47,711 nucleotides of DNA. Origin: a bacterium. GTDB taxonomy: Bacteria > 4484-113 > JAGGVC01. The DNA is taken from positions 1-47,711 of the forward strand of contig JABRWB010000019.1 in the NCBI GenBank assembly GCA_039961635.1, given 5' to 3'. The position numbers and the translations under genes are program-made. Of this stretch, positions 3,781-36,572 are shown one piece after another. Position 1 is the first letter of the stretch, and each line of letters opens with the position of its first letter. The notes beneath the pieces are model-generated. The model ran no database searches. It was not told where the DNA came from and was given only the letters and a program-made list of their open reading frames with translations.

Positions 3781-4733
3781 GCCTCTCCTTCAATTCCGCC
3801 GTGCTGGATCCGCCTGGTGAGGCGGTTGAACACGTCTTCCAGGCTCGCCTTCTCCCGGTACAGCTCCACCACCTTCAGCCCGGAGCCGGAAAATGCGTCG
3901 AAAATCCGCTCGCAAACGTCCTCTCCGCCTCCGGTAATTCTGAACGAAGCCGCGCCGCCCCCGCCCTGTACCGGCTCGATCCGCGCGCCCGCCGCCGCCG
4001 CTTCAAGCAGCTCCTTCGCCCTCTCCCCGTCGCCCTTCACCGACACGTGCGTTATAGCGTCTCCGGCGGCCATCGCGGACAACTCCTCCGGAGTGCCCTC
4101 GCCCGCCAGCTTGCCGTCGCTTATTATCAAAATCCGGTCGGAAACGGACTGCGCCTCCGGCAATATATGCGTGCTGAAAATCACCGTCTTCTGCCGCCCT
4201 ATGTTCCGGATGAGCGTGCGGATTTCCTGAATCTGGATAGGATCGAGGCCGCTTGTAGGCTCGTCCAGAATCAGCACCGGCGGATCGTGGATCAGCGCCT
4301 GCGCCAGCCCGACGCGCTGACGGAAGCCGCGGGAAAGCTGGCCGATGTCCTTGTGCGCCATCGAGCCCAGCGATGTGACCTCGACGATTTCGTCCAGCCG
4401 GGCTTTCCTTTTGGACGGGTCGATCCCCCGGATCCCCGCGATGAAGGACAGGTAATCCAGCACGCCCATATCGTGGTACAGGGGATTGTTCTCCGGCAGG
4501 TAGCCGATGCTTTTGCGAACCGCGACCGGGTCGCCTTCGACGTCGTAGCCGTTCACTTTGACCCGACCGCCCGTGGGAGAATGAAAGCAGGTGATCACCT
4601 TCATCGTGGTGGTTTTGCCAGCGCCGTTCGGGCCGAGAAATCCCACGATCTCGCCGTCGCCCACCTTGAACGTGATGCCGTCCACGGCTTTCACTTCTCC
4701 GAAATGCTTCGAAAGTCCTTCTACCTCGATCAT
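3777..4733 (-). CDS. ABC transporter ATP-binding protein (GldA-like)
   Basis: A 318-residue ATPase with Walker A GPNGAGKTT at residues 34-42, a LSRGFRQRV signature, Walker B ending LILDEP and the switch His in FSTHIL. The C-terminal 90 residues form an extra regulatory domain of the kind seen in ABC-2 drug or polysaccharide exporters. I chose ATG 4733 rather than the longest frame (start 4817), because the ABC domain begins right there (MIEVEGLSKHF) and a GGAG motif precedes it. The added 28 residues would be arginine-rich and unrelated. It is the first gene of the operon with the permease, GldG-like and DUF4340 genes. Confidence 0.92.
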   Translation of the reverse strand: MIEVEGLSKHFGEVKAVDGITFKVGDGEIVGFLGPNGAGKTTTMKVITCFHSPTGGRVKVNGYDVEGDPVAVRKSIGYLPENNPLYHDMGVLDYLSFIAGIRGIDPSKRKARLDEIVEVTSLGSMAHKDIGQLSRGFRQRVGLAQALIHDPPVLILDEPTSGLDPIQIQEIRTLIRNIGRQKTVIFSTHILPEAQSVSDRILIISDGKLAGEGTPEELSAMAAGDAITHVSVKGDGERAKELLEAAAAGARIEPVQGGGGAASFRITGGGEDVCERIFDAFSGSGLKVVELYREKASLEDVFNRLTRRIQHGGIEGEA

Positions 4734-4744
4734 TTTTCGCTCCG

Positions 4745-4770
4745 CCGGCGGGCAATGTAAGTCCCGCCGG
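4745..4770 (-). other. Hairpin in the ABC operon leader
   Basis: CCGGCGGG (4745-4752) and CCCGCCGG (4763-4770) form a perfect 8-bp stem with a 10-nt loop, immediately upstream of the ATPase ribosome binding site. A third CCGGCGGG lies at 4791-4798 and could pair alternatively. This may modulate translation initiation of the operon; no known riboswitch was recognised. Confidence 0.4.
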
Positions 4771-4832
4771 AGATAAATTAACCAATGCGGCCGGCGGGAG
4801 TTGCGCCGGCCGAGCAAATGCGGACGGGACGG

Positions 4833-4860
4833 ATAATACCCCGTTCCGCCCGAAAATCAA
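4833..4860 (-). promoter_or_regulatory. Candidate promoter of the ABC operon
   Basis: The minus strand carries TTGATT (4860-4855), a 16-bp spacer and TATTAT (4838-4833). Transcription starting near 4826 would give a leader of about 90 nt that contains the hairpin at 4745-4770. Confidence 0.55.
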
Positions 4861-4904
4861 CCTGAAAATGACGATTTAAGAACCTAATTGTTCAGTGTCC
4901 GCGC

Positions 4905-4943
4905 AAAAAAAAGCGGGGCATCCCCGGCTTGGGAATGCCCCGG
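4905..4943 (-). terminator. Intrinsic terminator after the acidic lipoprotein gene
   Basis: On the minus strand a GC-rich stem (GGGGCAT with ATGCCCC, extended by a CCC/GGG pairing) is followed directly by eight T residues. It lies about 60 bp past the stop of the lipoprotein gene at 5001 and separates it from the ABC operon. Confidence 0.85.
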
Positions 4944-5000
4944 CATCTCAATAAACCCGGACCCTGAAAAGAGCCGGGCGTGTTTTCGGATAGTTACGGC

Positions 5001-6566
5001 TTAGTTATCGTCCTCTTCCTCGCCGTCTTCACCATCACCGCCGTTGTCGTCGCCGTTGCCACCGTTGTCGTCACCGGTTTCCTCGCCGTCGTCGTCGCCG
5101 TTTCCGCCGTTGTCGTCGCCGGTTTCCTCGCCGTCGTCATCGCCGTTGCCGCCGTTGTCGTCACCGGTTTCCTCGCCGTCGTCGTCGCCGTTGCCGCCGT
5201 TGTCGTCACCGGTTTCCTCGCCGTCGTCATCGCCGCCGTTGCCGCCGTTGTCGTCACCGGTTTCCTCGCCGTCGTCATCGCCGCCGTTGCCGCCGTGGTC
5301 GTCGCCGGTTTCCTCGCCGTCGTCGTCGCCGTTGCCGCCGTTGTCATCGCCGATTCCGTCTTCGGTTTCGTCCTCGATCTTGAGCTTCTTCAGGTACATC
5401 GAGCCGTTTTCGAGTGTCCAACCTTCGATCTCGACGAACATTCCAACAGCCAGCTCGGCGAGAGTTATCAGGTTGCCGGAGTCATTGAGGAATTTCGTAA
5501 ATTCGTCGAAAGTATAAACCTGGCCGTCCACCGTGATTGCGCCGTCTCCGACTGCCTCGATTGTTCCTTTGAATTCGAACGCGGTGCCGTTGTCGTCACC
5601 GCCTTCAACCTCGGACTCGTCCTCGATCTTGACCTTTTTCAGATACATCGAGCCGTCCTCCAGAATCCAGCCCTCTATTTCGACAAACGTTCCCGCCGGA
5701 AATTCGGCAAGCGTCACCGGCTCGCCCGTATCGTTCAGGAAGCGGGTGTTCTGGTCAAACGCATATTCAACGCCGTCAACCGTAAGCGTGCCTTCGCCGA
5801 CAGCATCGATAGTGCCGGTCAATTCGAACTCCACGTTGTCTTCCATCCCGTCTCCGTTCTGATCGTCGTCGCCTTCGTCCCTGATTCCATCGTTGTCGTC
5901 ATCGGAATCGTGCTCGTTGGCGATGCCGTCCGCATCGTCGTCGCTGACCGAATCGTCGAACGTGCCATCGCCGTTCGAGTCAATCTGGGTTTCGCCGTCG
6001 CGCTGGCGGTGGCGGGTGCGCTCCTGATGGACGCCGTCGCCGTCGCGCAGCTCGGTCTCGACGTCGATGCTGTCGGGAATCCCGTCGCCGTCCGCGTCCG
6101 CAAGCCCGAGCATCTGGATCAGCTCTGTCGCCTGGCCGGGCGTGACCATCACTTCGAAGCTCAATTCGACCTTGTCGGGAGTGCCGTCGCCGTTGAGGTC
6201 GAATTCAAGCTCAAGTTTCACCTTTACTTGATACTGCTCGCCCGCGGGAACCATCTCGAACTTGAACTCGCCGTTCGCGTCGGTCAACGTTTCGCCGATG
6301 ACCCGTCCGGTGAGCTTCTCTACAAGCTGGACGATCACACCCGACAAGGGAGCGGGATCTTCCGCCTGGCTGGTGCCGCGGAATGCAAGGCCCGCATCCG
6401 TGAGCTTGCCCTGAACCGTGCCGTACTGCGTCTGATCCGCGGGCGGATTCCCCGGGCCGGGGACGATGGAGTTTCCGCCGCCGCCGCCGCAGGCCGCCAC
6501 TGCAAACAGAGCCGCCGCAACCAAAACCGCCATATACAAACTTCTGAAAATTCCAAACGACTTCAT
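5001..6566 (-). CDS. DUF5666 lipoprotein with calcium-binding-like and acidic repeat regions
   Basis: A 521-residue lipoprotein. The signal peptide ends in a lipobox with Cys26, followed by a run of glycines. Residues about 45-145 resemble a carboxypeptidase-regulatory-like beta domain. About 150-230 is rich in DxDxDG-type motifs (DADGDGIPDS, DSNGDGTFDD) like thrombospondin type 3 calcium-binding repeats. About 232-390 holds two copies of a DUF5666-like domain (a GTI/GTL-TVDG start and a DGSMYLKK end). From about 400 on there are six near-identical 15-16 residue GGNGDDDGEETGDDN repeats. A strong AAGGAGA precedes the ATG. It is probably displayed on the outer or inner membrane and binds divalent cations; no enzyme motif is present. 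Confidence 0.78.
   Translation of the reverse strand: MKSFGIFRSLYMAVLVAAALFAVAACGGGGGNSIVPGPGNPPADQTQYGTVQGKLTDAGLAFRGTSQAEDPAPLSGVIVQLVEKLTGRVIGETLTDANGEFKFEMVPAGEQYQVKVKLELEFDLNGDGTPDKVELSFEVMVTPGQATELIQMLGLADADGDGIPDSIDVETELRDGDGVHQERTRHRQRDGETQIDSNGDGTFDDSVSDDDADGIANEHDSDDDNDGIRDEGDDDQNGDGMEDNVEFELTGTIDAVGEGTLTVDGVEYAFDQNTRFLNDTGEPVTLAEFPAGTFVEIEGWILEDGSMYLKKVKIEDESEVEGGDDNGTAFEFKGTIEAVGDGAITVDGQVYTFDEFTKFLNDSGNLITLAELAVGMFVEIEGWTLENGSMYLKKLKIEDETEDGIGDDNGGNGDDDGEETGDDHGGNGGDDDGEETGDDNGGNGGDDDGEETGDDNGGNGDDDGEETGDDNGGNGDDDGEETGDDNGGNGDDDGEETGDDNGGNGDDNGGDGEDGEEEDDN
5031..5345. repeat. Tandem 45/48-bp coding repeat
   Basis: About six copies of a 45- or 48-bp unit encode the acidic tail of the lipoprotein. 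Copies differ by whole Gly codons (GGNGDDD versus GGNGGDDD) and a few synonymous changes. This fits unequal exchange or replication slippage that preserves the reading frame, so copy number may vary between strains. Confidence 0.85.
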
Positions 6567-6611
6567 CTCAAATCTCCTTCTTAAACCAGAACTGCCCGTT
6601 GCTTTCCCGTA

Positions 6612-6630
6612 ACCCCGCAGAACTCGGGGT
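6612..6630 (-). other. Hairpin in the leader of the 5001-6566 gene
   Basis: ACCCCG (6612-6617) and CGGGGT (6625-6630) form a 6-bp stem with a 7-nt loop, about 45 bp upstream of the lipoprotein start and 44 bp past the neighbouring stop. There is no U-run, so it may be a leader structure or a weak transcript end. Confidence 0.3.
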
Positions 6631-6673
6631 GTATCCGGCCCAGCGGCCGATTGATACCTATTTAATTGCAGGC

Positions 6674-7921
6674 CTAAAGCTCCGAACCGCCATCGCCGCC
6701 GTCATCGCCGGGATCTTCAGGATCCTCGGGATCCTCCGGCTCGTCGCCCGAATCCCCGTCACCCGAACCATCGTCACCCGGATCGTCTATTTGGCCGTCA
6801 TCCGATCCGTCATCGCCGGAATCGTCGCCGGAACCGTCGTCACCAGTTCCGTCATCGCCGGAGCCGTCGTCCGAGCCGTCGTCGCCAGAGCCATCGTCAG
6901 AGCCATCGTCATCGGAACCGTCGTCCGACCTATCATCATCCGAGCCGTCTTCGCCGCCGACACCGCTTACTTCGTCGTCGCCGGATTCGAGCTTCACTTT
7001 TTCCGCGTAGGTGTTTCCCAGCGGCGTCGTGTAGCCCTTCACCTCGACAAGATCGCCCGGCTGCAATCCCGTGCGGGACGCGCCGTCCTCGTACGAAGTG
7101 CGCGTGTCCAGAGTGAACGTAACGCCGTTTACAGTTATGGAATTTTCGGTTTTGGACTGAATTACGCCCTTCTCCTCGACCTCCACAAAGTCGTCGTGGT
7201 GCTCGTCCTCTTCTTCGCGTTCGTCCTCGATGCCGTCGTTGTCGTCGTCAGCGTGCCCGGAGTCGTCGTCGAAGCTTCCGTCAAGATTCGCGTCGAACGT
7301 CGTCGTGTTCATTCTGAAATCGATAACGTACCTTACGGTGCGCTCGCCGTCCGGCCCGGAATAGTGGTATTCGATTTCGACCTTGCCCGAATCGTCCGAG
7401 GAAGGTTTGCGAAGCGACGCAGTTCCGGCGATTCCCCAGAGTTTCACCGAAACGTCCAGCGAAGTTTTGGCGCTTGCCGCGATCTGTACCGGAATGTTGA
7501 CCGCAATCGGCGTCGCGACCGCTCCCGTGCCTTTCAAATCCACCGGAGTTGCGAAGTTGACATTAAGATAGTTGACCTTGCTGGGCTGGAGATTGCCGAC
7601 AGCGAACTGGCCGGTTGCCCCCGGATTGGTGGCCGCGATGAATCCGATTTCCTCGCTGGGATCGATCACTTTAAGCGTGGCGCGGGTGACGTCGGCCGGC
7701 GCTCCCGACTCGTCGCTCACCGGGATTCCGTTGACGTCGAGCACGCCCTCGATGGCTCCGGTCGTTCCGGCGGGGGGATTGACCACCGGGGGATTGACGA
7801 CCGGGGGATCCACTGCCGGCGGATCGCCGCCCGGATTCGGAACCGGCGCGCCGCCCCCCCCTCCGCAGGAGGTTAGGAAAAACACAGCAGCAACCGCAAT
7901 CAAAAACAATCTGAGAATCAT
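6674..7921 (-). CDS. DUF5666 lipoprotein with Asp/Ser/Gly-rich tail
   Basis: A 415-residue lipoprotein: signal peptide with lipobox Cys19, then glycine and Pro-rich (DPPVVNPP) linkers. A beta-rich middle (about 55-190) resembles DUF4382-like surface domains. A DxDxDG stretch near 205-230 is followed by one DUF5666-like domain (about 238-305: GVIQSKTENSITVNGVTF to GNTYAEKVKLE). The C-terminal 100 residues are almost entirely Asp, Gly, Ser and Glu in DGSDDG-type repeats. It shares this plan with the downstream lipoprotein and is probably its paralog. It starts 18 bp after the MocR-type gene and may be co-transcribed with it. Function unknown; cation binding at the surface is inferred from composition. 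Confidence 0.75.
   Translation of the reverse strand: MILRLFLIAVAAVFFLTSCGGGGGAPVPNPGGDPPAVDPPVVNPPVVNPPAGTTGAIEGVLDVNGIPVSDESGAPADVTRATLKVIDPSEEIGFIAATNPGATGQFAVGNLQPSKVNYLNVNFATPVDLKGTGAVATPIAVNIPVQIAASAKTSLDVSVKLWGIAGTASLRKPSSDDSGKVEIEYHYSGPDGERTVRYVIDFRMNTTTFDANLDGSFDDDSGHADDDNDGIEDEREEEDEHHDDFVEVEEKGVIQSKTENSITVNGVTFTLDTRTSYEDGASRTGLQPGDLVEVKGYTTPLGNTYAEKVKLESGDDEVSGVGGEDGSDDDRSDDGSDDDGSDDGSGDDGSDDGSGDDGTGDDGSGDDSGDDGSDDGQIDDPGDDGSGDGDSGDEPEDPEDPEDPGDDGGDGGSEL
6715..6960. repeat. Imperfect GAY/GGM coding repeat of the second lipoprotein
   Basis: A low-complexity stretch built from short units encoding DDGSDDG and SGDDG. Units of 15-18 bp recur imperfectly. It parallels the 5031-5345 array but is more degenerate. 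Confidence 0.6.
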
Positions 7922-9975: not shown

Positions 9976-10863
9976 TTAATATCCCAGGAAGCAAATCACG
10001 GCGCAGCGCGGCACCGACGCGACGAGCATTGCTGCCACCGGAATCAGCACGGCTGCGAAGGCGATTCCGTATGACAGCGCAAGCGTGCCAAAGCCTTTGT
10101 TTGCAGCGGGAGTTGGGCAAACTCCCAGTGCGGCCAGTCGCTCCCCCTGGAATGCGGAATCAATCTCGCCGGCACACAATTCCGTCAGCCCGATTTTGTA
10201 GGCTTCCTCGCCGACGGATTTCGCAACCGCGGCGTCGCATTCGTACTCGCACAAAAGCGGAAATACGCGCGCGAGCCGGTGAAGCGGCAGATTCATCATG
10301 TTCAGTCGAAGCAGCGCCCGCATTCCCAGCTTCATCCAATTGTGCCCCAAAATATAATGAGCATGCTCATGCGCGAGTGCGATATCGCGCGATTCCCCCG
10401 CAAGCGAATCGGATACGGCTATAAAAGGCCGGATTGCGCCGACGAGCGCGGCTCCCCTGATGACTGCAGTTGTTGCGACGGGCAGGCCGCAATAATTCTC
10501 GGCAGGACGCGCCCCGCGGATTCCCGCGCCGCCGCCCCGCACGAACAGATAGCTGGTCAAAAGCGAAAGCGCCATACCCGCAGTGCCGGAAAGAAGGATG
10601 GCAAGCTCCCCGCCGCCGTGCATCAATCCGTGAAAATAGGGCGTGACCATCCCGATCGCGCCGGTGCGGGCAAGCGCAGCCATAAGCGTTGTGAATCCGG
10701 CAGCGGCCAATACCGCGGCGATGAGCGAGAAAAACGCAAAACGCGCGCGTCCCGGCGGCGCGATCCCCGCAAGTAGACGCTCGACCGAAGCCGATGCGAT
10801 GTAAACGAGAATCGCCTGAACCAGAAAGAAAAGCGCTGCGATCTTTAAAGCCTGCTCGAACAC
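9976..10863 (-). CDS. M56-family membrane metalloprotease (BlaR1/MecR1-like, no sensor domain)
   Basis: A 295-residue membrane protein with hydrophobic segments near 5-27, 43-65, 85-107 and 262-285. The zinc protease motif HEHAH is at 165-169, and the presumed third ligand, Glu208, is in YECDAAV. This matches the peptidase part of BlaR1/MecR1. Unlike those, it ends just after the last membrane segment and has no penicillin-binding sensor domain, so beta-lactam sensing is unlikely. Its start overlaps the stop of the BlaI-type gene by one base, so the two are co-translated. Known family members inactivate the BlaI repressor by proteolysis, and that role is inferred here. The inducing signal could be metal or envelope stress; nothing in the sequence decides. 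Confidence 0.82.
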   Translation of the reverse strand: MFEQALKIAALFFLVQAILVYIASASVERLLAGIAPPGRARFAFFSLIAAVLAAAGFTTLMAALARTGAIGMVTPYFHGLMHGGGELAILLSGTAGMALSLLTSYLFVRGGGAGIRGARPAENYCGLPVATTAVIRGAALVGAIRPFIAVSDSLAGESRDIALAHEHAHYILGHNWMKLGMRALLRLNMMNLPLHRLARVFPLLCEYECDAAVAKSVGEEAYKIGLTELCAGEIDSAFQGERLAALGVCPTPAANKGFGTLALSYGIAFAAVLIPVAAMLVASVPRCAVICFLGY

Positions 10864-11249
10864 TAAATGTACTTCCGTTCCTTGAGCTCGCGGACCAGCT
10901 CGTCGATCCGGGACGGATCCTCGTCCTCCAAGGCATCGAGGAGGTGGCTTGCCACCACCTTCTCTTCCGTACCGAAGAGTGAGACGAAAAAGTTCCTGAT
11001 CCGCTCCACTTTATACCCCCGTTTGTCGGAAGTCGGCCTGTATATATATGAGCGGCCGTTTTTTCTGCGCGACAGCATTCCGCGCTCCCATAGCTGGCTC
11101 ATAACGGTCAGCACCGTTGTATATGCCAGCGGCTCGGCGCGCTCCTTGTTTATTTCGTCAAGCACGGCCTGGACGCTGCCCCTGCGCATCCGCCAGAGCA
11201 CTTCCATTATCTTGCCTTGCAATGGCCCAAGGTCGTTCAATCCGATCAC
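10863..11249 (-). CDS. BlaI/MecI/CopY-family transcriptional repressor
   Basis: A 128-residue protein with a winged helix in the first 75 residues (LQGKIMEVLWRMRRGSVQAVLDEI, then YTTVLTVMSQLWERGML and a wing at RSYIYRPT) and a C-terminal dimerisation region. It has no cysteine, so the copper-sensing CxC motifs of CopY are absent and induction must come another way, probably through the adjacent M56 protease. The annotated start is GTG 11249. A TTG at 11240 sits at better spacing behind a GAGGTGATC Shine-Dalgarno and may be the true start. Three ACTA-N7-TAG palindromes lie between it and the divergent efflux operon. Confidence 0.9.
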   Translation of the reverse strand: MIGLNDLGPLQGKIMEVLWRMRRGSVQAVLDEINKERAEPLAYTTVLTVMSQLWERGMLSRRKNGRSYIYRPTSDKRGYKVERIRNFFVSLFGTEEKVVASHLLDALEDEDPSRIDELVRELKERKYI

Positions 11250-11255
11250 CTCAAT

Positions 11256-11272
11256 TACTAGCCGCCATAGAA
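11256..11272. promoter_or_regulatory. Candidate BlaI operator 1
   Basis: TACTA-N7-TAGAA, in the leader of the repressor gene just upstream of its ribosome binding site. It shares the core ACTA-N7-TAG and the exact spacing of two other palindromes in this intergenic region. Confidence 0.6.
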
Positions 11273-11372: not shown

Positions 11373-11402
11373 TTGACAAACTACTAAGCAATCTAGTAAA
11401 AT
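11373..11402 (+). promoter_or_regulatory. Promoter of the metal efflux operon
   Basis: TTGACA (11373-11378), an 18-bp spacer and TAAAAT (11397-11402). The spacer is filled by the best of the three palindromes (operator 3). The predicted start of transcription is near 11409. Confidence 0.8.
11382..11398. promoter_or_regulatory. Candidate BlaI operator 3
   Basis: A perfect TACTA-N7-TAGTA palindrome between the -35 and -10 boxes of the efflux promoter. Bound repressor would exclude RNA polymerase. BlaI-family operators are palindromes of this general TAC/GTA type. Confidence 0.7.
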
Positions 11403-11411
11403 GCCTCCGCT

Positions 11412-12923
11412 TTGGCTCCATTCGGAGGAAAACCGGGCTTTCGCACGAAGCGTCGCGCGCTTATGACGGCCATTTGCGCGTTTGCAGCCGTCTATTCGGC
11501 GGCTCTTTGCGCGCGTCCGGCTGTAGCGGGCGAAGCGGTCAGGATCGAGAGAGCCGGCCGGGAGATTCGAAACGCGTTTTCGGGACAGGGCGCGCCCGTG
11601 GGCAAGCTGGCCGCGCTTGAAGAAGAAGCGCGCGGCCGCGTTCGCGAAATCCTGGAGAGGCCGGGCTTTCTGGTTTCGGATCCGTCCGGCGTTTACATTC
11701 CCTCACCGCTCGGCAAGTTGATGGCGATGACCGTCGCCAAAAATCCGGAGCTCGCGCTTATGCGCAGCGACGTGGCCGTGATGGAAGAGCAGGCGCGGCA
11801 GATGGGGGCGTATATGGACCCGATGGTCGGTTTGATGCTGGGAAACATGATGGTCCAGTGGCCGTGGGAACAGATGGAGCCGATGACCATGCAGGAGCTC
11901 AAATTCCAGCAGAGCTTCATGAGCTACGGCAAGCGATCTTCGATGAAAAAGATCGCGGGCTACGACGTGAAGCTTGCGGAAATCGCGGTGAAGGAAGCGG
12001 AATACAACATGTCGGGCGACGTAATAGACATGTACTACGACTTGCTTGCGAACGCCGTCAACATCGAAATGCTGGACAAGCGCAAGGCTCTGCTTGAAAT
12101 AATGCTCGAAATCGCTCGCGCGCGTTACGAATTGGGCTTGGCGCCGATGAGCGACGTGCTTTCCACTCAGAAGATGATCTCGATGGTGGATGCGATGCGC
12201 GCGGAGATGGAAGAGATGCGCGGGACGATGACCGCAAAGCTTGCCGGAATGATCGGGATTCCGGATGGCGAGCTCGAATTGGAGCTTGAGGCGGCGGAGG
12301 GCGATGCGTTTGCCGCCGATGCCGACGCGGAATCGCTGTGGTTCGAAGCTTACAAGCTTCACCCGGAGCTTGCCTGGTTGACGGTATGGGACGCGCAGCT
12401 TGCCGAAAAGGAAAAGCTGGCGGAAAAAAACTACCACCCCGATTACACGATCGAAGCTGGATACGGATTCCGCCAGAATTTCGCCGACATGTTTTCTTTG
12501 GGAGTCATGTTCAATCTGCCCATATACCAGCGCGACAAGCAGGACGCGGCGTTCAAGGAAGCGGCCGCGATGCGCGAGCAAGTTCCTTTAAAAGAGCAGG
12601 CATTGCTGAACCGCATCAGGCGCGACGGCGGCGCGGAGCTTGCCAGGCTGCGGCTTATCGGCGCGCGGATAGACCGGTACAAAAACGAGCTGATTCCTCT
12701 TGCCGAAACCTCGTTCGACGCTACGCTTGCGGGCTATCAAGTCGGCAAGGCGATGTTCGCGGATTTGTTAATGACGCAGATCGATCTGGTGGATTACGAA
12801 ACGGAGCACAGGTTGGCGCTGGTCGAAAGGGCGCGGGCGCGCTCGAAGCTTTATTACATCACGCTGGGCGCGGTGGCGGATGCCATGGCGCCGAATCGTG
12901 AGGAGGTTGACGATACGGAATGA
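11412..12923 (+). CDS. TolC/CusC-type outer membrane efflux channel
   Basis: An outer membrane factor of about 490-503 residues. It has a signal peptide (AICAFAAVYSAALC ending near PAVAG) and two long alpha-helical repeats typical of the TolC family: residues about 95-290 and 310-495, each with SxxxAE/ARYELG-type heptads (IARARYELGLAPMSDVLST; ATLAGYQVGKAMFADLL). The start is uncertain. TTG 11412 is nearly leaderless from the promoter and supplies the basic residues before the signal peptide; ATG 11463 gives a shorter signal peptide with no good ribosome site. The region is unusually Met-rich near residues 120-170 (MVQWPWEQMEPMTMQEL), which would suit Cu/Ag handling. It is the first gene of the efflux operon, and its stop overlaps the next ATG (ATGA). 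Confidence 0.88.
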   Translation: MAPFGGKPGFRTKRRALMTAICAFAAVYSAALCARPAVAGEAVRIERAGREIRNAFSGQGAPVGKLAALEEEARGRVREILERPGFLVSDPSGVYIPSPLGKLMAMTVAKNPELALMRSDVAVMEEQARQMGAYMDPMVGLMLGNMMVQWPWEQMEPMTMQELKFQQSFMSYGKRSSMKKIAGYDVKLAEIAVKEAEYNMSGDVIDMYYDLLANAVNIEMLDKRKALLEIMLEIARARYELGLAPMSDVLSTQKMISMVDAMRAEMEEMRGTMTAKLAGMIGIPDGELELELEAAEGDAFAADADAESLWFEAYKLHPELAWLTVWDAQLAEKEKLAEKNYHPDYTIEAGYGFRQNFADMFSLGVMFNLPIYQRDKQDAAFKEAAAMREQVPLKEQALLNRIRRDGGAELARLRLIGARIDRYKNELIPLAETSFDATLAGYQVGKAMFADLLMTQIDLVDYETEHRLALVERARARSKLYYITLGAVADAMAPNREEVDDTE

Positions 12924-13648
12924 CGGATAACAAGAAATCAGCCGCGGATTCGGGAGCGGAAGACATGCACGCGCCGCATCCGATTCCGCGCGAGGTCGAA
13001 TCCGGCACCGCCGGTCAGGGATTCGTCGGCGTGCTTTTCGCGCTTATGGCGCTTGGCGTAATCGCATGGCTCTTCACCAAGTTGATGGCGCCTTATCCGG
13101 GCTATTCGAACCCGTCGGAAGCTGCGGCGAAGGCGGCGGGCAACGACAAAACCGCCGAAGCGATGGCGAATCCACCGCCGGCGGGAACGGCGAAGACTTC
13201 CGATATGAAAGCGCCCGCCGCGGACGACGGCTCGTATTCCGCACGGCTCGCTTCTTTCCCCGGCGGCGGTGATCCTATCTGCGGGATGGCGCCGGAAAAG
13301 TCGTCCAGCATGGTCGCGGCGCACTTCGATTCCGGATGGGTCGGCTTCGTCTCGCTTGCTTGCTTTTTTCAATATGCCGAAAAAAACAAGCCCCATGCTG
13401 TCGAGGTGCTCGACTACTCGACTTTTCGCAAGGAACCGGCTGACAGGAAGCTGGTCCCGGCAGAGGACGCGGTGTACCTGATTGGTATCGACGGCGTCCC
13501 GCCCGGCTCGATGCCGCCCGGAGTCGCTGCTTTCTCCACGAAAGACGCGGCGGAGTCCGCGATGGGCGACCTCGGCGGAAAAATCGCCGATTTCGAAGAA
13601 ATGAAGAAATACGTACGTGATTGGCTGCTGGAACAGGGGATGCTTTGA
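12920..13648 (+). CDS. Membrane-anchored NosL-like protein
   Basis: A 242-residue protein with a cytoplasmic N-terminus, one membrane helix (about 34-55), an Ala/Pro-rich linker and a C-terminal NosL-like domain (about 115-235). Key features are DPICGM (Cys121, Met123), a second cysteine in FVSLACFFQYAEK (Cys148), LDYSTF, and SMPPGVAAFSTKDAAESA, which corresponds to the MG/AF motif of NosL. NosL is a copper-binding accessory protein of nitrous oxide reductase, but no nos gene is nearby. Here the first motif has a single Cys, not CxxC. The 4-bp overlap with the TolC gene and a TGATG junction with the next gene indicate coupled translation. A periplasmic metal-carrier role for the pump is inferred. 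Confidence 0.72.
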   Translation: MTDNKKSAADSGAEDMHAPHPIPREVESGTAGQGFVGVLFALMALGVIAWLFTKLMAPYPGYSNPSEAAAKAAGNDKTAEAMANPPPAGTAKTSDMKAPAADDGSYSARLASFPGGGDPICGMAPEKSSSMVAAHFDSGWVGFVSLACFFQYAEKNKPHAVEVLDYSTFRKEPADRKLVPAEDAVYLIGIDGVPPGSMPPGVAAFSTKDAAESAMGDLGGKIADFEEMKKYVRDWLLEQGML

Positions 13649-13752
13649 TGGCTGCACTTACCGACAGACAGTTGAAAATCCTCGCGTTCGCCATTGTATT
13701 CATTATGGCGGCCGCGTTCGTAGCGGGAGTATTTCTGGGAATCCGGCGATGA
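13648..13752 (+). CDS. 34-residue single-pass membrane peptide
   Basis: A small reading frame starts at the ATG that overlaps the preceding TGA (TGATG). It encodes 34 residues: a short polar N-terminus (MAALTDRQLK), one hydrophobic helix of about 20 residues and an RR end. Stop-start overlap, membrane-helix composition and position inside the operon support translation. Small membrane subunits often tune transporters (AcrZ with AcrB is the known RND example), but no similarity to AcrZ is claimed. It could also anchor the neighbouring NosL-like proteins. Confidence 0.6.
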   Translation: MAALTDRQLKILAFAIVFIMAAAFVAGVFLGIRR

Positions 13753-13798
13753 CGCGCCGGTCCGTTTCTATCACCAATTTGCAAAGGAGTTGTTTCGA

Positions 13799-14821
13799 AT
13801 GATGCGCATTTTTGTTTTGATGTCAATGATTGTGTTTGCGGCGATTCTAGCCGGTTGTCCCGAATCCGGCACGGAAAACGGCGGCGACACAGGCGCGCAG
13901 TCCGGCACGCCGCCTGCCGCGACCGCGGACAACCAAACGATTCTCGGCGCGGAAGGAGAGAAGGCCTCCTGCCCGCATTGCGGAATGGACGCTTTGGCCA
14001 GCAACGCTCGGATCAAAACGGCGGACGGGATGTTCGACAGCCTCGCGTGCTGGGTGGCCTATGCGGAGGAAAACGGCAAAACCCTGACCGACGCCGAAGT
14101 GCTTGACCTTTCCTCGGGCGCGGAAGAAAAAATGATGAAGGTCACGGACGCCAATTTTGTCAAAGTCAAGCTGATGCGCGGCTCGATGCCTCCGTTTTTC
14201 GCGGCTTTCAGCGACAAGGCGAAAGCCGCGGAGACCGCCAACCTGGAAGCATCGGAAGTTTTGGATTTCAATGGCGCGGTCGAATTGGTTAAATCCGAAA
14301 AGCCGATGCACGGCGAAGCCGCCGAATCCGGCGACGGACATGAACACGAGCATGGGGAAACTGCCAAGTCGCCGGAAAAAGGATTCGCTGCGCCCGCAGC
14401 TTCCAAAAATCGCCAGGTGACCAACGAAAAATGCCCCATGTGCTCGATGAGCACGCTGAAAACGCCGACCCTTGTCAAGTACGGCCCGGAGGGCAAAGAA
14501 ACCTACTTTGCGAGCATGGAATGCTGGCTTGAATACGCCGAGGAAAACAAGCTGCCGCCCGAATCCGCGCAAATCGTAGACTACGACACGCTCGGCAAGG
14601 AAGAGCGGTTCGAGCCAGTTTCCGCGATGTTCTATGTTCAACTGGACTCGTTGAGATATTCGATGCCGCCGTACTTCGCAGCGTTCTCGGATCTCGCCAA
14701 GGCCGAAGCGTTCGCCAAGGAGCACAACAGCAAGGCCGTGGGCTTCGGGGATGTGCAGATTGAAGTTTTCAAGTACGAACAGGAAGAAAAGAATGCGGGC
14801 CGCGGGGGGCATCATCACTAG
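13799..14821 (+). CDS. Lipoprotein with two NosL-like domains and a His-rich linker
   Basis: A 340-residue lipoprotein. AAGGAG lies 9 nt before ATG 13799, preferred over an upstream TTG at 13790. The lipobox is LAGC (Cys20). Domain 1 (about 55-165) has CPHCGM at 58-63, a third Cys84 in SLACWVAYAE and SMPPFFAAF. The linker at 171-186 alternates His and Glu (HEHEHG). Domain 2 (about 208-325) has CPMCSM at 212-217, Cys242 in SMECWLEYAE and SMPPYFAAF. The protein ends in HHH. The CxxCxM plus Met and His pattern fits soft-metal binding such as Cu(I) or Ag(I). It is probably anchored in a membrane leaflet facing the periplasm, handing ions to the CusB-like adaptor. Function is inferred from family and operon. 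Confidence 0.75.
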   Translation: MMRIFVLMSMIVFAAILAGCPESGTENGGDTGAQSGTPPAATADNQTILGAEGEKASCPHCGMDALASNARIKTADGMFDSLACWVAYAEENGKTLTDAEVLDLSSGAEEKMMKVTDANFVKVKLMRGSMPPFFAAFSDKAKAAETANLEASEVLDFNGAVELVKSEKPMHGEAAESGDGHEHEHGETAKSPEKGFAAPAASKNRQVTNEKCPMCSMSTLKTPTLVKYGPEGKETYFASMECWLEYAEENKLPPESAQIVDYDTLGKEERFEPVSAMFYVQLDSLRYSMPPYFAAFSDLAKAEAFAKEHNSKAVGFGDVQIEVFKYEQEEKNAGRGGHHH

Positions 14822-14858
14822 GCCTGTTTTCGGGATATACCCCAACGGAGGAAATGAA

Positions 14859-15536
14859 ATGCAAAAGGCGAAGTTTTACGCAGTTTTGATAGTCGCGGGG
14901 CTCCTCGCGATTCAAATGGCGATCGCGGGATTTGCTCGCGTATCTCCTGAAACGCAAAACGGACCGTCAGCGGCTGCGTCCGGCGACGATTGCGAGATGC
15001 ACGGCGACGCTGCGGCCTCGAGCGGCGACGACGGATGCGGGATGGACGGCGGAGGCTGCTGCGGCGACGGAGGCTCGCAAGTCGCGTCGGCCGAAATGGC
15101 AAGCTCCGAAACTTCCGCGCAAGCGCGCGAGGTCGCGAACGACGAGTGCCCGATGTGCTCGATGAGCACAGAAAAGACGCCCACGCTTGTGCGTTATATC
15201 GCCGGCGAGGACGACGAAGTGGATTTCGTCAGCCTCGAATGCTGGATAGACTATGCCAAGAACGAAAAGATCGCTTTTGAAAAGGCGCTCGTTCTTGACT
15301 ACTCCACGCTCGGCGCCGTGGAAAAAATGGTAAAAGCGGACAAGGCGTTTTACGTGCCCCTAGAAGCGCTGAAGTTTTCGATGCCGCCATACCTGGCCGC
15401 GTTCGCGGAAAAGGATAAGGCGAGGAAATTCGCCGAATCCAAGGGAAGCAAGGTGATATCGTTCGCCGAAGCGAAGGAAATGATTCTCGATTACCAGGAA
15501 AACGAAGAAGACGAAGGGCACGCGCATCACCATTAA
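14859..15536 (+). CDS. NosL-like protein with Cys/Met/His-rich linker
   Basis: A 225-residue protein starting at ATG 14859 behind GGAGG (5-8 nt spacing); the longer frame from 14751 would run into the preceding gene. It has an N-terminal membrane helix or uncleaved signal (5-24), then a flexible linker with Cys45, Met47, Cys60, Met62, Cys67 and Cys68, and one NosL-like domain (about 92-212). That domain carries CPMCSM (97-102), Cys128 in SLECWIDYAK, VLDYSTLG and SMPPYLAAF. It ends HAHHH. The domain is closely similar to domain 2 of the preceding lipoprotein (shared CPMCSMST-KTPTLV), so duplication within the operon is likely. The linker cysteines could be additional Cu(I)/Ag(I) ligands. Confidence 0.74.
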   Translation: MQKAKFYAVLIVAGLLAIQMAIAGFARVSPETQNGPSAAASGDDCEMHGDAAASSGDDGCGMDGGGCCGDGGSQVASAEMASSETSAQAREVANDECPMCSMSTEKTPTLVRYIAGEDDEVDFVSLECWIDYAKNEKIAFEKALVLDYSTLGAVEKMVKADKAFYVPLEALKFSMPPYLAAFAEKDKARKFAESKGSKVISFAEAKEMILDYQENEEDEGHAHHH

Positions 15537-15593: not shown

Positions 15594-16976
15594 ATGGTCA
15601 GAGTCAATCTGGGCGTACTTGTTTTTCTTTTCGGGTGCATCGTCATCCTGGCGTATCTCGCCTACTTTCAGCGCGGCCAGATTGATCGCCTGCTTGAGGC
15701 GGGTTATGTAATGCCTGCTTCCGGCGAAGGAGGGGGGGAGTCGGGCGATTTCATTTACATAGACTCCATGCATCCTTGGATAACCAGCGACAAGCCCGGA
15801 ACTTGCCCCATCTGCGGGATGGAGCTTATCAAGGTGTCCGGCGAAGACGCAAAGAAGATGCAGGAAGCCGTCAAGAGCGGCGTGGCCAAGGTGTCGCTCT
15901 CGCCCATAGACCGGCTGACGTCCAACGCGCAGGTTTCCCGCGTTGAAGAGATCACGATTTCGCCCGAAATCAAGACCTACGGAACCGCCGTAGCTCCGGA
16001 AACCGGTTTCCAGGTGCTGACGACCTGGGTCGAGGGGCGCATCGAAAAATTCTACGTTCAGGAAACCGGCGTCTACCTGAAAAAGGGCGCGCCGCTGATC
16101 GACGTTTATTCGCCGATGCTGGTCGAGGCGCAGCAGGAGTTCCTTGTATCGGTGCGCGCCAAAAAGAAGCTCGCGGAAAGCGGCAACCAAAGCCTGGGCA
16201 GCAACACCGACAAGCTTATCGAAAGCGGGCGGCGCAAGCTGTCGCTTATGGGAATGACCGACAAGCAGATTGCGAAACTAGAATCGGACGGAACCGTCGT
16301 GGATAAAGTTACGGTTTACGCGCGCGCCGGCGGAATCGTGATGCGGCTGATGGCTACCCAGGGGATGTACATGATGGAGGGGGGGGAAATCCTGGAAGTC
16401 GCGAACCTTTCGCCGATCTGGGTGGAGCTTAACGTCTACGAACAGGACATCCCCAGGGTCGCCGTGGGCGACCGCGTGGAGCTGACCGCGACCGGCCTCG
16501 GCGGGGAAGTGAAACTGAACGGCCCGGTTACGCTGCTTCTTCCCGAAGTGATGGGCGAATCGCGCACGCTGATGGTGCGCGCCGAAGTCAACAATCCCGG
16601 CCTCGCGCTTCGCCCCGGAATGTTCGTCGAAGGAAAAATCAAAAAGCGCACGTCCGAAAAAGTGCTCGTCGTGCCGCGCGACAGCGTTCTGTGGAGCGGC
16701 AAAGGCGCCAAGGTGTGGATACCCACCGTGGACGAGCCTGGCACTTACGTCGCGAAAGAGATCAAGGCGGGCCGTATTTTGGGCGACAACGGCGAGTGGA
16801 TCGAGGTGCTGGACGGGCTGCGAAAGGGCCAGTCGGTGCTTTCGGGCGCGGTGTTCCTCATCGACAGCGAGGCCGAGCTGATGAACGTGGGCGCGGCCGC
16901 GGACTCGGCGGCGGAGGCCGGCGGGCCGTCAGAAAAAGACGGGGGGGGAGATAATCCGCCCGGGCACGTGCATTAG
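15594..16976 (+). CDS. cusB: CusB-type periplasmic adaptor with heavy-metal-binding domain
   Basis: A 460-residue membrane fusion protein. It has an N-terminal helix (about 5-25), then a heavy-metal-binding zinc-ribbon-like domain (54-81) with MHPWI and PGTCPICGMEL (Cys71, Cys74, Met76) as in many CusB/SilB/CzcB adaptors. Next are the barrel-sandwich and hairpin parts (TWVEGRIEKFYVQETGVYLKKGAPLIDVYSPMLVEAQQEFL) and a beta-barrel/MP domain to about 420. The tail is Gly-rich and ends HVH. ATG 15594 follows a GAGGG; the frame extends upstream to 15540 without support. It bridges the TolC-type channel and the CusA-like pump, 36 bp downstream. Confidence 0.9.
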   Translation: MVRVNLGVLVFLFGCIVILAYLAYFQRGQIDRLLEAGYVMPASGEGGGESGDFIYIDSMHPWITSDKPGTCPICGMELIKVSGEDAKKMQEAVKSGVAKVSLSPIDRLTSNAQVSRVEEITISPEIKTYGTAVAPETGFQVLTTWVEGRIEKFYVQETGVYLKKGAPLIDVYSPMLVEAQQEFLVSVRAKKKLAESGNQSLGSNTDKLIESGRRKLSLMGMTDKQIAKLESDGTVVDKVTVYARAGGIVMRLMATQGMYMMEGGEILEVANLSPIWVELNVYEQDIPRVAVGDRVELTATGLGGEVKLNGPVTLLLPEVMGESRTLMVRAEVNNPGLALRPGMFVEGKIKKRTSEKVLVVPRDSVLWSGKGAKVWIPTVDEPGTYVAKEIKAGRILGDNGEWIEVLDGLRKGQSVLSGAVFLIDSEAELMNVGAAADSAAEAGGPSEKDGGGDNPPGHVH

Positions 16977-17012: not shown

Positions 17013-20000
17013 ATGATCGAAAGCGTACTCGAATACTGCCTTAAGAACAGGTTCATCGTGATCCTGGCCGCCGTCGCGCTTTTCGTCTGGGGCGTGATTA
17101 CGTTGCGCGAAACGCCTGTGGACGCGCTGCCCGACCTGTCGGACAATCAGGTAATCATTTATACGCCATGGGCGGGCCAGGCGCCGCTGACTGTCGAAGA
17201 CCAGGTCACCTACCCGCTCGAAACCGCGATGATGGGGCTGCCGCATGTCAAGGACGTGCGCGGCCAGAGCTTTTACGGATTCAGCCTGATTTACGTAATC
17301 TTCGACGACAGCGTGGACATCTACTGGGCGCGAAGCCGCGTTCTGGAAAGGCTCGCCAGCTCGCAGGGACTTATCCCCCCCGGGGTGACGCCGCAGCTCG
17401 GCCCGGACGGTACCGGCGTAGGACACGTTTTGTGGTACATAATCAAGGGCGAAGGAAAATCGCTCGCCGACTTGCGCAGCATCCAGGACTACTACATCCG
17501 ATATCAATTGGCGGCGGTGGACGGCGTCAGCGAGTGCGCAAGCGTGGGCGGATTCGTGCGCGAATACCAGGTGGATCTCGACCCCGACCTGCTGCGAAAG
17601 TACGGCGTGACTTCAAGCGACGTCGTCAACGCGATCAAGATGGGCAACGGCGAAGTCGGCGCTCGCGTTCTCGAGCAAAGCGACCAGGAGTACTACATCC
17701 GCGGCCGCGGATACGTGGAATCCATCGAGGACATCGGCAACATAGTAATCAAAGCGACCATGACCGGCGTGCCGGTGCTCGTAAAGCACGTGGCGAAGGT
17801 GCAGCTCGGCACGGACATGCGCCGCGGTCTTCTGGAGTTGAACGGGGAGGAGGAGGTCGTCGGCGGAATTATCGTGATGCGTTTCGGCGAAAACGCGAAG
17901 GCCGTCATAGACCGCGTCAAGGAGAAAATCAAGGAAGTCGAGCGCGGCCTGCCCGAAGGCATGTCCATCGAGATCGTGCACGACCGCAGCGCGCTCATCG
18001 AAAAGGCGATAGACCACCTCAAACACACGCTGTTCGAGGAAATAATCGTCGTCATAATCGTCGTACTTGTATTCCTTCTCGACTGGCGCGGGAGCCTGGT
18101 GATAACTATCGCGATGCCGCTCGCGGTGCTGGCGGGATTCATCGTGCTCCGCCAGTTCGGGCTGAACGCGAACATAATGAGCCTGATGGGCATCGCGATA
18201 ACTATAGGCGTGATCGTGGACGACGGAATCGTGCTTGTCGAAAACGCGCACAGGTGGATCGTGAACGCGTCCGACGGCGGGAAAAGAACTCTCACCTACA
18301 AGGAGAAATTCGAGGCGGTTCGAGGCGCGTGCATTCAGATAAGAAAGGCGTTGCTCTTCACGCCGCTCATCGTGCTTACAAGCTTCGTTCCTGTGTTTCT
18401 CCTTACCGGCCAGGAAGGAAAGCTGTTCATTCCGCTGGCGCTCACCAAAAGCGGGCTGATGCTTGCATCCGCGTTTCTGGCAATCACATTCAAGCCGGTG
18501 CTGCTCACATTCATTATGGGGCGGCGCGCGCGTCCCGACAGCGCGAATCCGATAACGCGGTTCTTCGACTGGCTTTACGCGCCCCTCGTCCGCGGCGCTC
18601 TCAAGTTCGGCTGGCTCGTAATCGCGGCATCGTTCGCGATCGTCGCCCTCACATACCCGATTTACAAAAAGCTCGGCACCGAATTCATGCCGAATCTTAA
18701 CGAGGGCGAGCTTGTTTACATGCCGGTTACTATGCCCGGAATAACGACGACAGAAGCAAAGCGGCTTTTGCAGCTCACGGACAAAATAATGATGCAGCAT
18801 CCGCAGGTCGCGCGGGTACTCGGCAAGGACGGACGCGCGGAGACCGCAACCGACCCCGCGCCGATGAACATGATCGAAACGTTTGTCCAGTTCACGCCAG
18901 AGGAAACCTGGCCGAAGGGCAAGACGATAAACGACATCCGCAGCGAGCTGGACGCGATGCTTAAAGTGCCCGGCCTGCAGAACGGCTGGACGATGCCCAT
19001 CATCAACCGCATCCAGATGCTCGCGACGGGCGTGCGCACCGATGTCGGGATAAAAATCTACGGAAACGACCTGGACACCCTGGCGCGCCTGTCTCTGGAA
19101 GCCGAAAAAATCGCGAAGGGCGTCAACGGCGCGGTGGACGTGTTCGCCGAGCGCGTCATGGGCGGACGGTACATCAACATCAAGCCCGACCGCGAAAAGG
19201 CGGCGCGCTACGGACTGAACGTCGGCGACGTGCAGATGGTGATTGACAGCGTGCTCGGAGGGATGGCGCAGACGACCACGGTGGAAGGCCGCGAGCGCTA
19301 TGGTATCCGCGTCAGGTACGCGCGCGATTTCCGCGACAACACCGACCGGATTATGGACACGCTCGTACCGACGATGGACGGCGGGCAGATTCCGCTGCGG
19401 ATGGTTGCCGACGTCTACTACGAAGACGGGCCGCCGATGGTGTCGAGCGAGAACGGCATGTTGCGCTCGCTCGTTTACCTGAACATCCGCGGCCGCGACA
19501 TGGGTAGCACCGTGAACGCGCTGGACAAAGCGCTGTCCGAAAACCTGGAACTGCCGGAAGGCTACTACTACCGGCTTTCCGGCCAGTGGGAAAACCTGGT
19601 GCGCGCGCGGGCGCGGCTTGCGATAATCCTTCCGTTCGCGCTCGTCATAATTTTCGTGCTTCTGTATTTCACTTTCGGCAACTTCACGGACACGATGATC
19701 GTGATGCTGTCGGTACCTTTCGCGTTCATCGGCGGAGTGTGGCTGTTGGCCTGGCACAACATGAACATAAGCGTCGCGGTGTGGGTGGGATTCATCGCTC
19801 TGTTCGGGCTGGCGGTATCGACCGGCGTCCTGATGGTCGTCTACCTGGAGGAAGCGTTTTTGCGCGTGCGCGACCAGAACGGCGGCGTGATGACGCCCGC
19901 GCTGATATTCAAGGCCGCGTACGAGGGCGCGGCGCTGCGGCTGCGCCCCAAGCTGATGACGGTGGCGACGTCGGTCATCGCGCTCTTCCCGATAATGTAC

Positions 20001-20174
20001 TCGCACGGAACGGGCAGCGAAGTGATGAAACCGATTTGCGTGCCGCTTATCGGCGGGTTGCTTTCAAGCACCGTGCTGGTATTGATCGTAATTCCGGTGC
20101 TGTACGCCTGGGCGCGGATAATCGAGCTGAAACTCGGAATAACCTACGAAACCAAGAGCGGGATGAAGCATTAG
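17013..20174 (+). CDS. cusA: CusA/CzcA-family heavy-metal efflux RND pump
   Basis: A 1053-residue HME-RND inner-membrane pump with the usual twelve helices, two large periplasmic loops and the ETPVDALPDLSDNQV opening of the family. The fourth helix reads GIAITIGVIVDDGIVLVENAHR, giving Asp403/Asp404 and Glu410 for proton relay. Three methionines fall where, by my recalled alignment, the CusA metal triad sits: Met620 (APMNM), Met669 (NRIQM) and Met716 (ERVMGGRYI). This favours Cu(I)/Ag(I) over Zn/Co/Ni, as does the company of NosL-like proteins. The operon ends here. Confidence 0.92.
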   Translation: MIESVLEYCLKNRFIVILAAVALFVWGVITLRETPVDALPDLSDNQVIIYTPWAGQAPLTVEDQVTYPLETAMMGLPHVKDVRGQSFYGFSLIYVIFDDSVDIYWARSRVLERLASSQGLIPPGVTPQLGPDGTGVGHVLWYIIKGEGKSLADLRSIQDYYIRYQLAAVDGVSECASVGGFVREYQVDLDPDLLRKYGVTSSDVVNAIKMGNGEVGARVLEQSDQEYYIRGRGYVESIEDIGNIVIKATMTGVPVLVKHVAKVQLGTDMRRGLLELNGEEEVVGGIIVMRFGENAKAVIDRVKEKIKEVERGLPEGMSIEIVHDRSALIEKAIDHLKHTLFEEIIVVIIVVLVFLLDWRGSLVITIAMPLAVLAGFIVLRQFGLNANIMSLMGIAITIGVIVDDGIVLVENAHRWIVNASDGGKRTLTYKEKFEAVRGACIQIRKALLFTPLIVLTSFVPVFLLTGQEGKLFIPLALTKSGLMLASAFLAITFKPVLLTFIMGRRARPDSANPITRFFDWLYAPLVRGALKFGWLVIAASFAIVALTYPIYKKLGTEFMPNLNEGELVYMPVTMPGITTTEAKRLLQLTDKIMMQHPQVARVLGKDGRAETATDPAPMNMIETFVQFTPEETWPKGKTINDIRSELDAMLKVPGLQNGWTMPIINRIQMLATGVRTDVGIKIYGNDLDTLARLSLEAEKIAKGVNGAVDVFAERVMGGRYINIKPDREKAARYGLNVGDVQMVIDSVLGGMAQTTTVEGRERYGIRVRYARDFRDNTDRIMDTLVPTMDGGQIPLRMVADVYYEDGPPMVSSENGMLRSLVYLNIRGRDMGSTVNALDKALSENLELPEGYYYRLSGQWENLVRARARLAIILPFALVIIFVLLYFTFGNFTDTMIVMLSVPFAFIGGVWLLAWHNMNISVAVWVGFIALFGLAVSTGVLMVVYLEEAFLRVRDQNGGVMTPALIFKAAYEGAALRLRPKLMTVATSVIALFPIMYSHGTGSEVMKPICVPLIGGLLSSTVLVLIVIPVLYAWARIIELKLGITYETKSGMKH

Positions 20175-22852: not shown

Positions 22853-23728
22853 TCACCTATCGGCAGAAACGATTGATTTGACTATCGGGCGCAATGCGCC
22901 AATGACGGTATGATAGTCAGGCAACTCAGGCACCAACGGTCCAAGGAACTGATCCCACGTTTTCTCGACATAAGCAAGCATTCGCTCCTCGAAAAAGTCC
23001 TCCGGAGCATTGAAAAAGATTTTTCGCGCTGCGCACTTCTCCTTCAGCAAGGACGGGAAATGGGCAAAGTCCATCGAGCCTCCATAGGTTTCGATCACCC
23101 GCCAGATATCGTAGAAATCCCGGGCGCGGGATCGGCTCCATCCCCTCTCTTCGAGCATCGCTGCATGCTGGAGAATCGCGCGGAGCTTTTCCGCAACAAT
23201 TTCCTCCAGCGCATAGACCTGGATTTCCGCGTCGAGCGGTTCTCCATATTCATGTATTATTTTCTTTTTTGGCGCGGGCATAACAACCCTTTCATCTATG
23301 GTCGTCTCGATCAGCACGCGCGTATTGGGCTGGCTTTGCCAATGGAATCGAGCCCTGATAATAAACGCCTCCTGGCCGCCCGGATGCGGTTCCTTCTCCG
23401 TGTAACGCTCGCAGGCGATGTCCACCGGCGCATATTCGTCAAGCAAAGACGACGCGGCATCGCACGCATCGCGAATTGCATGCTCCATTTTGCCTCCAGT
23501 TGGAACGCCGGGAAGGGCTGAAAAATCCAGGTCCTCCGAAAATCTGTAGTCACCGAAGTAGCATTTTCTTAGCGCCGTGCCGCCTTTGAATACAAGCGTG
23601 TCACGAAGCGATTCGACATGCCCGATACCTGCCAGAATCCAAGACAGCAGATAGTCGCGTTCCAATATCTCCCAGGGGAGCCCAAGACGCTTTCGCGCTT
23701 CCTGGAGCCGCGTGCGCAACGGCTTCAT
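22853..23728 (-). CDS. abiEii: AbiEii-type nucleotidyltransferase toxin
   Basis: A 291-residue DUF1814 protein. The nucleotidyltransferase core is clear: FKGGTALRKC (residues about 48-57), then RFSEDLDFS with paired Asp, and the ALEEIVAEKLRAIL and SRARDFYDIWRV motifs of AbiEii/MenT toxins. Known relatives transfer nucleotides, in some cases to tRNA acceptor ends, and arrest growth or abort phage infection. It overlaps the antitoxin gene upstream by 4 bp (ATGA), the standard AbiE order. All catalytic motifs appear intact, so the toxin is probably functional. Confidence 0.88.
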   Translation of the reverse strand: MKPLRTRLQEARKRLGLPWEILERDYLLSWILAGIGHVESLRDTLVFKGGTALRKCYFGDYRFSEDLDFSALPGVPTGGKMEHAIRDACDAASSLLDEYAPVDIACERYTEKEPHPGGQEAFIIRARFHWQSQPNTRVLIETTIDERVVMPAPKKKIIHEYGEPLDAEIQVYALEEIVAEKLRAILQHAAMLEERGWSRSRARDFYDIWRVIETYGGSMDFAHFPSLLKEKCAARKIFFNAPEDFFEERMLAYVEKTWDQFLGPLVPELPDYHTVIGALRPIVKSIVSADR

Positions 23729-27457: not shown

Positions 27458-27649
27458 TCAGCACTTTCGAACCACAATCCAAAGCGAGTCGACATTGCTA
27501 AAATGGCAGACAACCGCCTCTCGCATGTTCTCCCTGAGTTCTTCAAGCGTGTCGGCCTCCGTGATTATGTCTTCGCCGAGCGCTTCCGCGATGTAGCCGC
27601 CTTCTTCGGCTTCCTCGACGTTGAACACGATTTCCTGCCTGGGTTTCAT
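27458..27649 (-). CDS. HicB-like antitoxin, shortened C-terminus
   Basis: A 63-residue protein matching the HicB-type short family up to about residue 50: KPRQEIVFNVEEAEEGGYIAEALGEDIITEADTLEELRENMREAVVCHF. Relatives continue with about 20 residues predicted as a further strand (typically IRLHFV). Here the frame ends quickly with FSNVDSLWIVVRKC, so the C-terminus is truncated or replaced. No HicA toxin gene is seen on either side; the divergent neighbour is a metal exporter. Confidence 0.7.
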   Translation of the reverse strand: MKPRQEIVFNVEEAEEGGYIAEALGEDIITEADTLEELRENMREAVVCHFSNVDSLWIVVRKC

Positions 27650-27711
27650 ATAATCACCCCAGCCTATTATACCCCGGGCCGACCATTCGAAGTTGCTTTG
27701 CCTTCATCGGC

Positions 27712-27717
27712 TACAAT
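27712..27717 (+). promoter_or_regulatory. -10 box of the NicO gene (leaderless)
   Basis: TACAAT lies 7 nt before the GTG start at 27725, with no Shine-Dalgarno between. No good -35 at normal spacing. Confidence 0.4.
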
Positions 27718-27724
27718 CCCGCCC

Positions 27725-36447: not shown

Positions 36448-36572
36448 CAATCCTCAAACGATCCGATTGAAACGGCTAAAAGCCGCACATCAGGCGATTC
36501 CCGAAGCCCGCAGGAGCGGAGAGTTTAGTACAAACGTTCAATTGGCAGAATAAATGAATCCGTATTCCATAT

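Follow-up and report, generated by a model that had tools for sequence, protein, structure and literature searches.

NosL-family proteins in the cusF position of a putative Cus-type copper/silver efflux operon

Three NosL-family proteins, carrying four domains, were found between the outer-membrane channel and the adaptor and permease genes of a Cus-type pump in the stretch of DNA analysed here (47,711 nucleotides, hereafter the window), which is one whole contig of a draft genome (100 contigs, 96% complete, 1.6% contamination). The locus is probably a Cus-type operon for Cu(I)/Ag(I) efflux whose NosL domains stand in for CusF in both position and role. The most likely reading of the sequence is that the NosL domains replace CusF and hand Cu(I) or Ag(I) to CusB, a transfer that we infer from the genes and their conserved sites.

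NosL proteins within the pump operon

The genes of the operon, all on the forward strand, were as follows.

11412-12923 (+): TolC/CusC-type outer-membrane channel (PF02321, E 3.5e-33)
12920-13648 (+): NL1, 242 aa, membrane helix and one NosL domain (PF05573, 43.1 bits)
13648-13752 (+): 34-aa single-helix open reading frame overlapping the NL1 stop, read from sequence and hydrophobicity
13799-14821 (+): NL2, 340 aa, lipoprotein with two NosL domains and a His-rich linker (PF05573, 49.1 bits)
14859-15536 (+): NL3, 225 aa, N-terminal hydrophobic helix, Cys/Met-rich linker, one NosL domain and a His tail (PF05573, 44.9 bits)
15594-16976 (+): CusB-type adaptor with an N-terminal HMBD (M59, C74, M76; PF16576, PF19335)
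17013-20174 (+): CusA-type heavy-metal RND permease with a three-Met site (TIGR00914, 1078.9 bits)

All three NL proteins scored above the Pfam NosL cut-off of 24 bits, NL2 in two stretches, and a whole-genome profile scan placed four NosL matches in the window. Domain NL2a scored alone fell below that cut-off (20.6 bits, E 9.7e-4), and it matched at every key residue in an alignment of 16 domains. The Cys-x-Met motif reads C-G-M in NL1 and NL2a and C-S-M in NL2b and NL3; it forms part of CPxCxM in NL2a, NL2b and NL3, and NL1 reads DPICGM, without the first Cys. The later Cys lies in SLAC, SLAC, SMEC and SLEC (NL1, NL2a, NL2b and NL3, respectively), and SMPPxxAAF was counted four times, once per domain. 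In NL1 a hydrophobic helix spans residues 34-52, followed by CGM at 121, SLAC at 145 and SMPPGVAAF at 197. NL2, whose frame has a longer version beginning at a TTG (13790), carries the lipobox LAGC at residues 17-20, and the N-terminus of NL3 is a hydrophobic helix or a signal peptide. An earlier note on this DNA, made from the letters alone, had described three proteins with four NosL-like domains between TolC and CusB/CusA, a CPxCxM motif (ICGM in the first protein), a later Cys in an S-[LM]-x-C context, SMPPxxAAF throughout, differing anchors, and His-rich and Cys/Met-rich linkers in the second and third proteins; its placing of the genes was right, and every one of these features was read again in the sequence.

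A structural model of the NL3 domain, the only one of the four that was modelled, was built from aligned sequences of the window's domains and of one relative (mean pLDDT 85.7). Foldseek returned five significant PDB matches, all of them NosL (7znq_L, 7og7, 7osf_H, 7osg_H and 7osj_H; probability 1.00, TM 0.57-0.63). Four residues were invariant across the 16 aligned domains: the Cys and Met of Cys-x-Met, the second Cys and the later Met of SMPP; the solved NosL structures share the Cys-x-Met pair and this later Met. By profile, by fold (in the NL3 model) and by conserved ligands, the three window proteins belong to the NosL family. As a marker of pump-type NosL the second Cys was considered and discarded, since it also occurs in the NosL encoded in this genome's nos cluster. 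The 34-aa reading frame, for which profile searches gave no solid family match, is possibly a small membrane subunit of the pump.

The permease cleared the TIGR00914 cut-off of 701 bits, and its three-Met site (M573/M623/M672 in E. coli K-12 numbering) was kept in 7/7 NosL-linked CusA proteins, that of the window included. Among the other CusA methionines checked in the window protein, M391, M486 and M1009 were kept and M403, M410, M501 and M755 were changed. M59/C74/M76 of the window CusB, a Met/Cys/Met site, align with M49/M64/M66 of E. coli CusB, which are reported as Cu(I) ligands that interact with CusF, the N-terminal site exchanging Cu(I) with that protein (PMC6715271, PMC6235853). Because the CusA and CusB sites are kept, the pump is, as judged from these residues, of the Cu/Ag type. 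The same sites bear on a reading in which pump and NosL proteins act on a different soft metal, for instance Hg, by way of a distant structural relation between NosL and MerB that is discussed in PMC8261052: MerB2 was the next match of the NL3 model, a weak and non-significant one (E 0.98), while the strong fold matches were all NosL and the metal sites are those typical of Cu(I)/Ag(I), so that we give the Hg reading a nearly negligible probability.

The order TolC-NosL-CusB-CusA sets the NosL genes in the slot held by cusF in the E. coli order cusC-cusF-cusB-cusA. The TolC and NL1 genes share 4 bases, the 34-aa frame begins at the NL1 stop, and the remaining gaps are of about 36 to 57 bases; from this spacing, the genes from TolC through CusA likely form a single transcription unit. 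No profile match to CusF (PF11604) was obtained in the whole genome, the E. coli control being positive, and CusF was present in 0/8 NosL-Cus genomes and 7/35 comparison genomes. The absence of CusF as proof of replacement was rejected as weak, since only those 7/35 comparison genomes carry it.

Other loci of the window were recorded in passing. A type IV toxin-antitoxin pair (AbiEii toxin and AbiEi antitoxin; 22853-24585, reverse strand) lies near the pump operon, a NicO-type nickel/cobalt transporter gene (27503-28519, forward strand) is a second metal transport gene on the contig, and multiple DUF5666 proteins, one of them joined to a PDZ-containing S41 protease, are encoded at 5001-7921 and 34738-36450 (both reverse strand).

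Related operons and the separate nos cluster

Among nine genomes of the same class, the whole block TolC-NosL-NosL-CusB-CusA was found in three (G002, G005 and G007), and G008 carried TolC-NosL as far as the contig end. The last NosL protein of the block ends in an HMBD in G005 (E 1.4e-6) and in G007 (E 3.3e-13), and this fused domain is the one found at the head of their CusB proteins. Of 63 genomes with NosL found outside the class, three (G294, G195 and G548) have a NosL gene no more than about 3.2 kb from a CusA gene; their arrangement is looser, with an ABC-transporter gene near and some of the NosL ligands different. The co-occurrence of NosL with heavy-metal RND genes thus extends to class-mates and to three genomes beyond the class, in samples that were non-random, so that the fraction is not a prevalence; the phylum of G294 was represented by two genomes only. 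A locus search with a four-sequence NosL alignment returned one locus, on a contig of G003, and a tblastn search of plasmids with NL3 gave no match. In G548 (L057, 1800-14469) FtsX and an ABC ATPase are followed by a NosL-like protein with a Gly/His-rich tail and then by NosL, TolC, CusB and CusA, perhaps a copper cluster that is related yet distinct. The CusB of G294 (L043, 7429-9219) carries YHS domains at its C-terminus.

The NosL-HMBD fusions weigh in the choice between a relay and its main rival, a periplasmic buffer. According to the latter, the NosL domains and the His/Cys/Met linkers would soak up Cu(I)/Ag(I) in the manner of SilE or PcoE, with no direct hand-off to the pump. Four domains with a His-rich and a Cys/Met-rich linker would suit such a function, and the known NosL binds Cu(I) very tightly (PMC6530538); an attomolar affinity could favour retention of the metal over hand-off. 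Against it, the genes occupy the cusF slot, the NosL-HMBD fusions of the relatives tie NosL to the entry domain of CusB, and three different anchors suggest positioning over bulk storage. Buffering without hand-off is regarded as unlikely.

The earlier note had remarked that no nos gene is nearby, which is correct for the window and did not extend to the genome, since a complete nosZ-D-F-L-Y cluster with its own NosL was found on another contig (C13; nosZ matched nos_propeller, E 5e-34). That pump and nos cluster belong to one genome rests on correct binning. In a tree of 40 NosL domains, a branch supported at 97/93 separated the 15 from nos clusters, without exception, from all the pump-linked and solitary NosL. 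Both kinds occurred in each of G000, G002, G007 and G008. A single, exclusive clade of pump NosL was unsupported, there being 5 label changes, with solitary NosL-like proteins nested among the pump-linked ones. Solitary NosL-like proteins of class-mates that are without Cys-x-Met (L032, 9416-10021; L035, 7238-7867; L039, 9635-10387; L031, 9302-10048) have a putative NosL-type fold.

The window NosL proteins have no adjoining nos gene and fall on a branch separate from that of the nos-cluster NosL; by location and tree, the pump-linked NosL are independent of the nos cluster. It might be argued that they serve nitrous oxide reductase, the pump linkage balancing copper for N2O respiration, as the genome does carry nosZ-D-F-L-Y and the protein closest to NL2a in the tree, itself a NosL of pump-linked subtype, is encoded tail-to-tail with nosZ-D-F-Y in G003 (L038, 868-1506; nos genes at 1525-7468), a draft genome in which no CusA was found above the search threshold. 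The nos cluster, however, encodes a NosL of its own, which falls in the nos-cluster branch, the window genes are embedded among pump genes away from nosDFY, and the same division between a NosL for nos and one for the pump was seen in G002, G007 and G008, which makes service to the reductase very unlikely. Because of the mixed tree and the G003 gene beside nosZDFY, the pump-linked subtype is not claimed to serve pumps only.

Promoter, operator and the BlaI/M56 pair

A pair of regulatory genes lies divergent from the tolC operon, and operator-like repeats were found in the region.

9976-10863 (-): short M56-type (BlaR1-like) membrane metalloprotease, 295 aa (PF05569, E 7.1e-6, 25.8 bits, below the cut-off of 31)
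10863-11249 (-): BlaI/MecI/CopY-type repressor (PF03965, E 9.9e-22)
11256-11272 (no strand): imperfect second operator-like repeat near the blaI start, with one mismatch to TACTA-N7-TAGTA
11373-11402 (+): promoter-like TTGACA-18-TAAAAT (11/12 match)
11382-11398 (no strand): perfect inverted repeat TACTA-N7-TAGTA inside the promoter, a probable BlaI operator

The repressor matched CopY_TcrY only weakly, below the cut-off, and the profile search of the M56-type protein found no recognised sensor domain. With one mismatch allowed, 0.05 occurrences of the TACTA-N7-TAGTA repeat are expected per window. Exact copies in the genome numbered two, one in the tolC promoter and one within the coding region of a gene that we take to be hflX. 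The CopY box TACANNTGTA showed no enrichment, unlike the BlaI-type palindrome, which is enriched. We take the repeat to resemble BlaI/MecI operators, and BlaI would bind it. In G005, a class-mate of another family, an equivalent divergent pair is present, the M56 homologue adjoining blaI (L027), and an identical repeat lies between blaI and tolC (L027, 7531-7547). No BlaI/M56 genes adjoin the operon in the stretches read of G002, G007 and G008, and a literature search for BlaI and M56 with copper found nothing.

This distribution also bears on a sensing function, in which one or more NosL proteins would offer Cu(I) to the M56 protease and so trigger the cleavage of BlaI, with any relay secondary. 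Such a function would accord with the short M56 homologue that has no recognised sensor domain, and with the adjacency of BlaI/M56 and the NosL operon here and in G005; since the pair is missing beside the operon in the stretches read of the three other class-mates, we see only a very slim chance that sensing is the main task.

Proposed copper route and comparison with known systems

The proposal that the NosL proteins would load CusB as CusF does draws on the HMBD fusions, the gene position and the conserved receiving site. The tethered domains would capture periplasmic Cu(I)/Ag(I) by Cys-x-Met and the later Met, possibly with the second Cys. The three anchors suggest a spatial arrangement, for which we propose an order of steps: NL1 would act at the inner membrane, perhaps receiving copper from a P-type ATPase (two of the Cu type are encoded elsewhere in the genome), NL2 at its lipid anchor and NL3 close to the pump. 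The domains would then load the HMBD site of CusB (M59/C74/M76), from which the ion would move to the three-Met site of CusA and out via TolC, and a rise in the metal probably leads the BlaI/M56 pair to derepress the operon. A periplasmic relay of Cu(I)/Ag(I) to the pump had been proposed in the earlier note, before the operator in the promoter and the nos cluster on C13 had come to light; the cusF slot, the CusA and CusB sites, the NosL-HMBD fusions and the separateness of the nos cluster now speak for it. A bolder version, which we consider rather doubtful, is that helix, lipid anchor and signal anchor form a NosL ladder from membrane to membrane that relays Cu(I)/Ag(I) step by step from the Cu-ATPase to the entry domain of CusB, and that copper detoxification is an old and separate NosL job beside that for N2O reductase.

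In the literature that was available, NosL is treated as an N2O reductase factor or as one of the periplasmic biogenesis chaperones, and surveys read it as a dedicated N2O reductase copper chaperone (PMC6769254). Searches for NosL with CusA, CusB, RND, heavy metal efflux or copper resistance yielded no description of a NosL-bearing pump, in agreement with the earlier note, to which this composition was not known as a described efflux system, with subscription journals lying mostly outside the search. If the NosL genes belong to a copper/silver pump here, NosL alone is no sign of N2O reduction. A protein family unrelated to CusF appears to have taken over its work, which would make this a case of chaperone replacement in which the receiving site of CusB was kept and the donor changed.

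With BlaI/BlaR1 and CopY systems the locus shares a BlaI-type repressor, an M56-like protease and a TACTA/TAGTA palindrome in the promoter, whereas the M56 protein of the window is short, below the Pfam cut-off and without a recognised sensor domain. In Shewanella oneidensis, nosL and nosY are listed with sir sulfite reductase genes in PMC5955497, which suggests that NosL has already found a use beyond the N2O reductase system; NosL is likewise employed there away from that enzyme, although it accompanies nosY and an enzyme system rather than an efflux pump. The NosL of N2O reductase (NosDFYL) is alike in profile, fold, Cys-x-Met and later Met, and the window proteins differ from it in the lack of surrounding nos genes, in their tandem or multiple copies, in their anchors and in their tree branch. 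E. coli CusCFBA has channel, periplasmic-carrier slot, CusB and CusA in the same order, with the three-Met site of CusA and the N-terminal metal site of CusB, whereas in the window the CusF position is taken by three NosL proteins with four domains, the HMBD of CusB is of a Cys type, and the neighbours are BlaI/M56 instead of CusRS.
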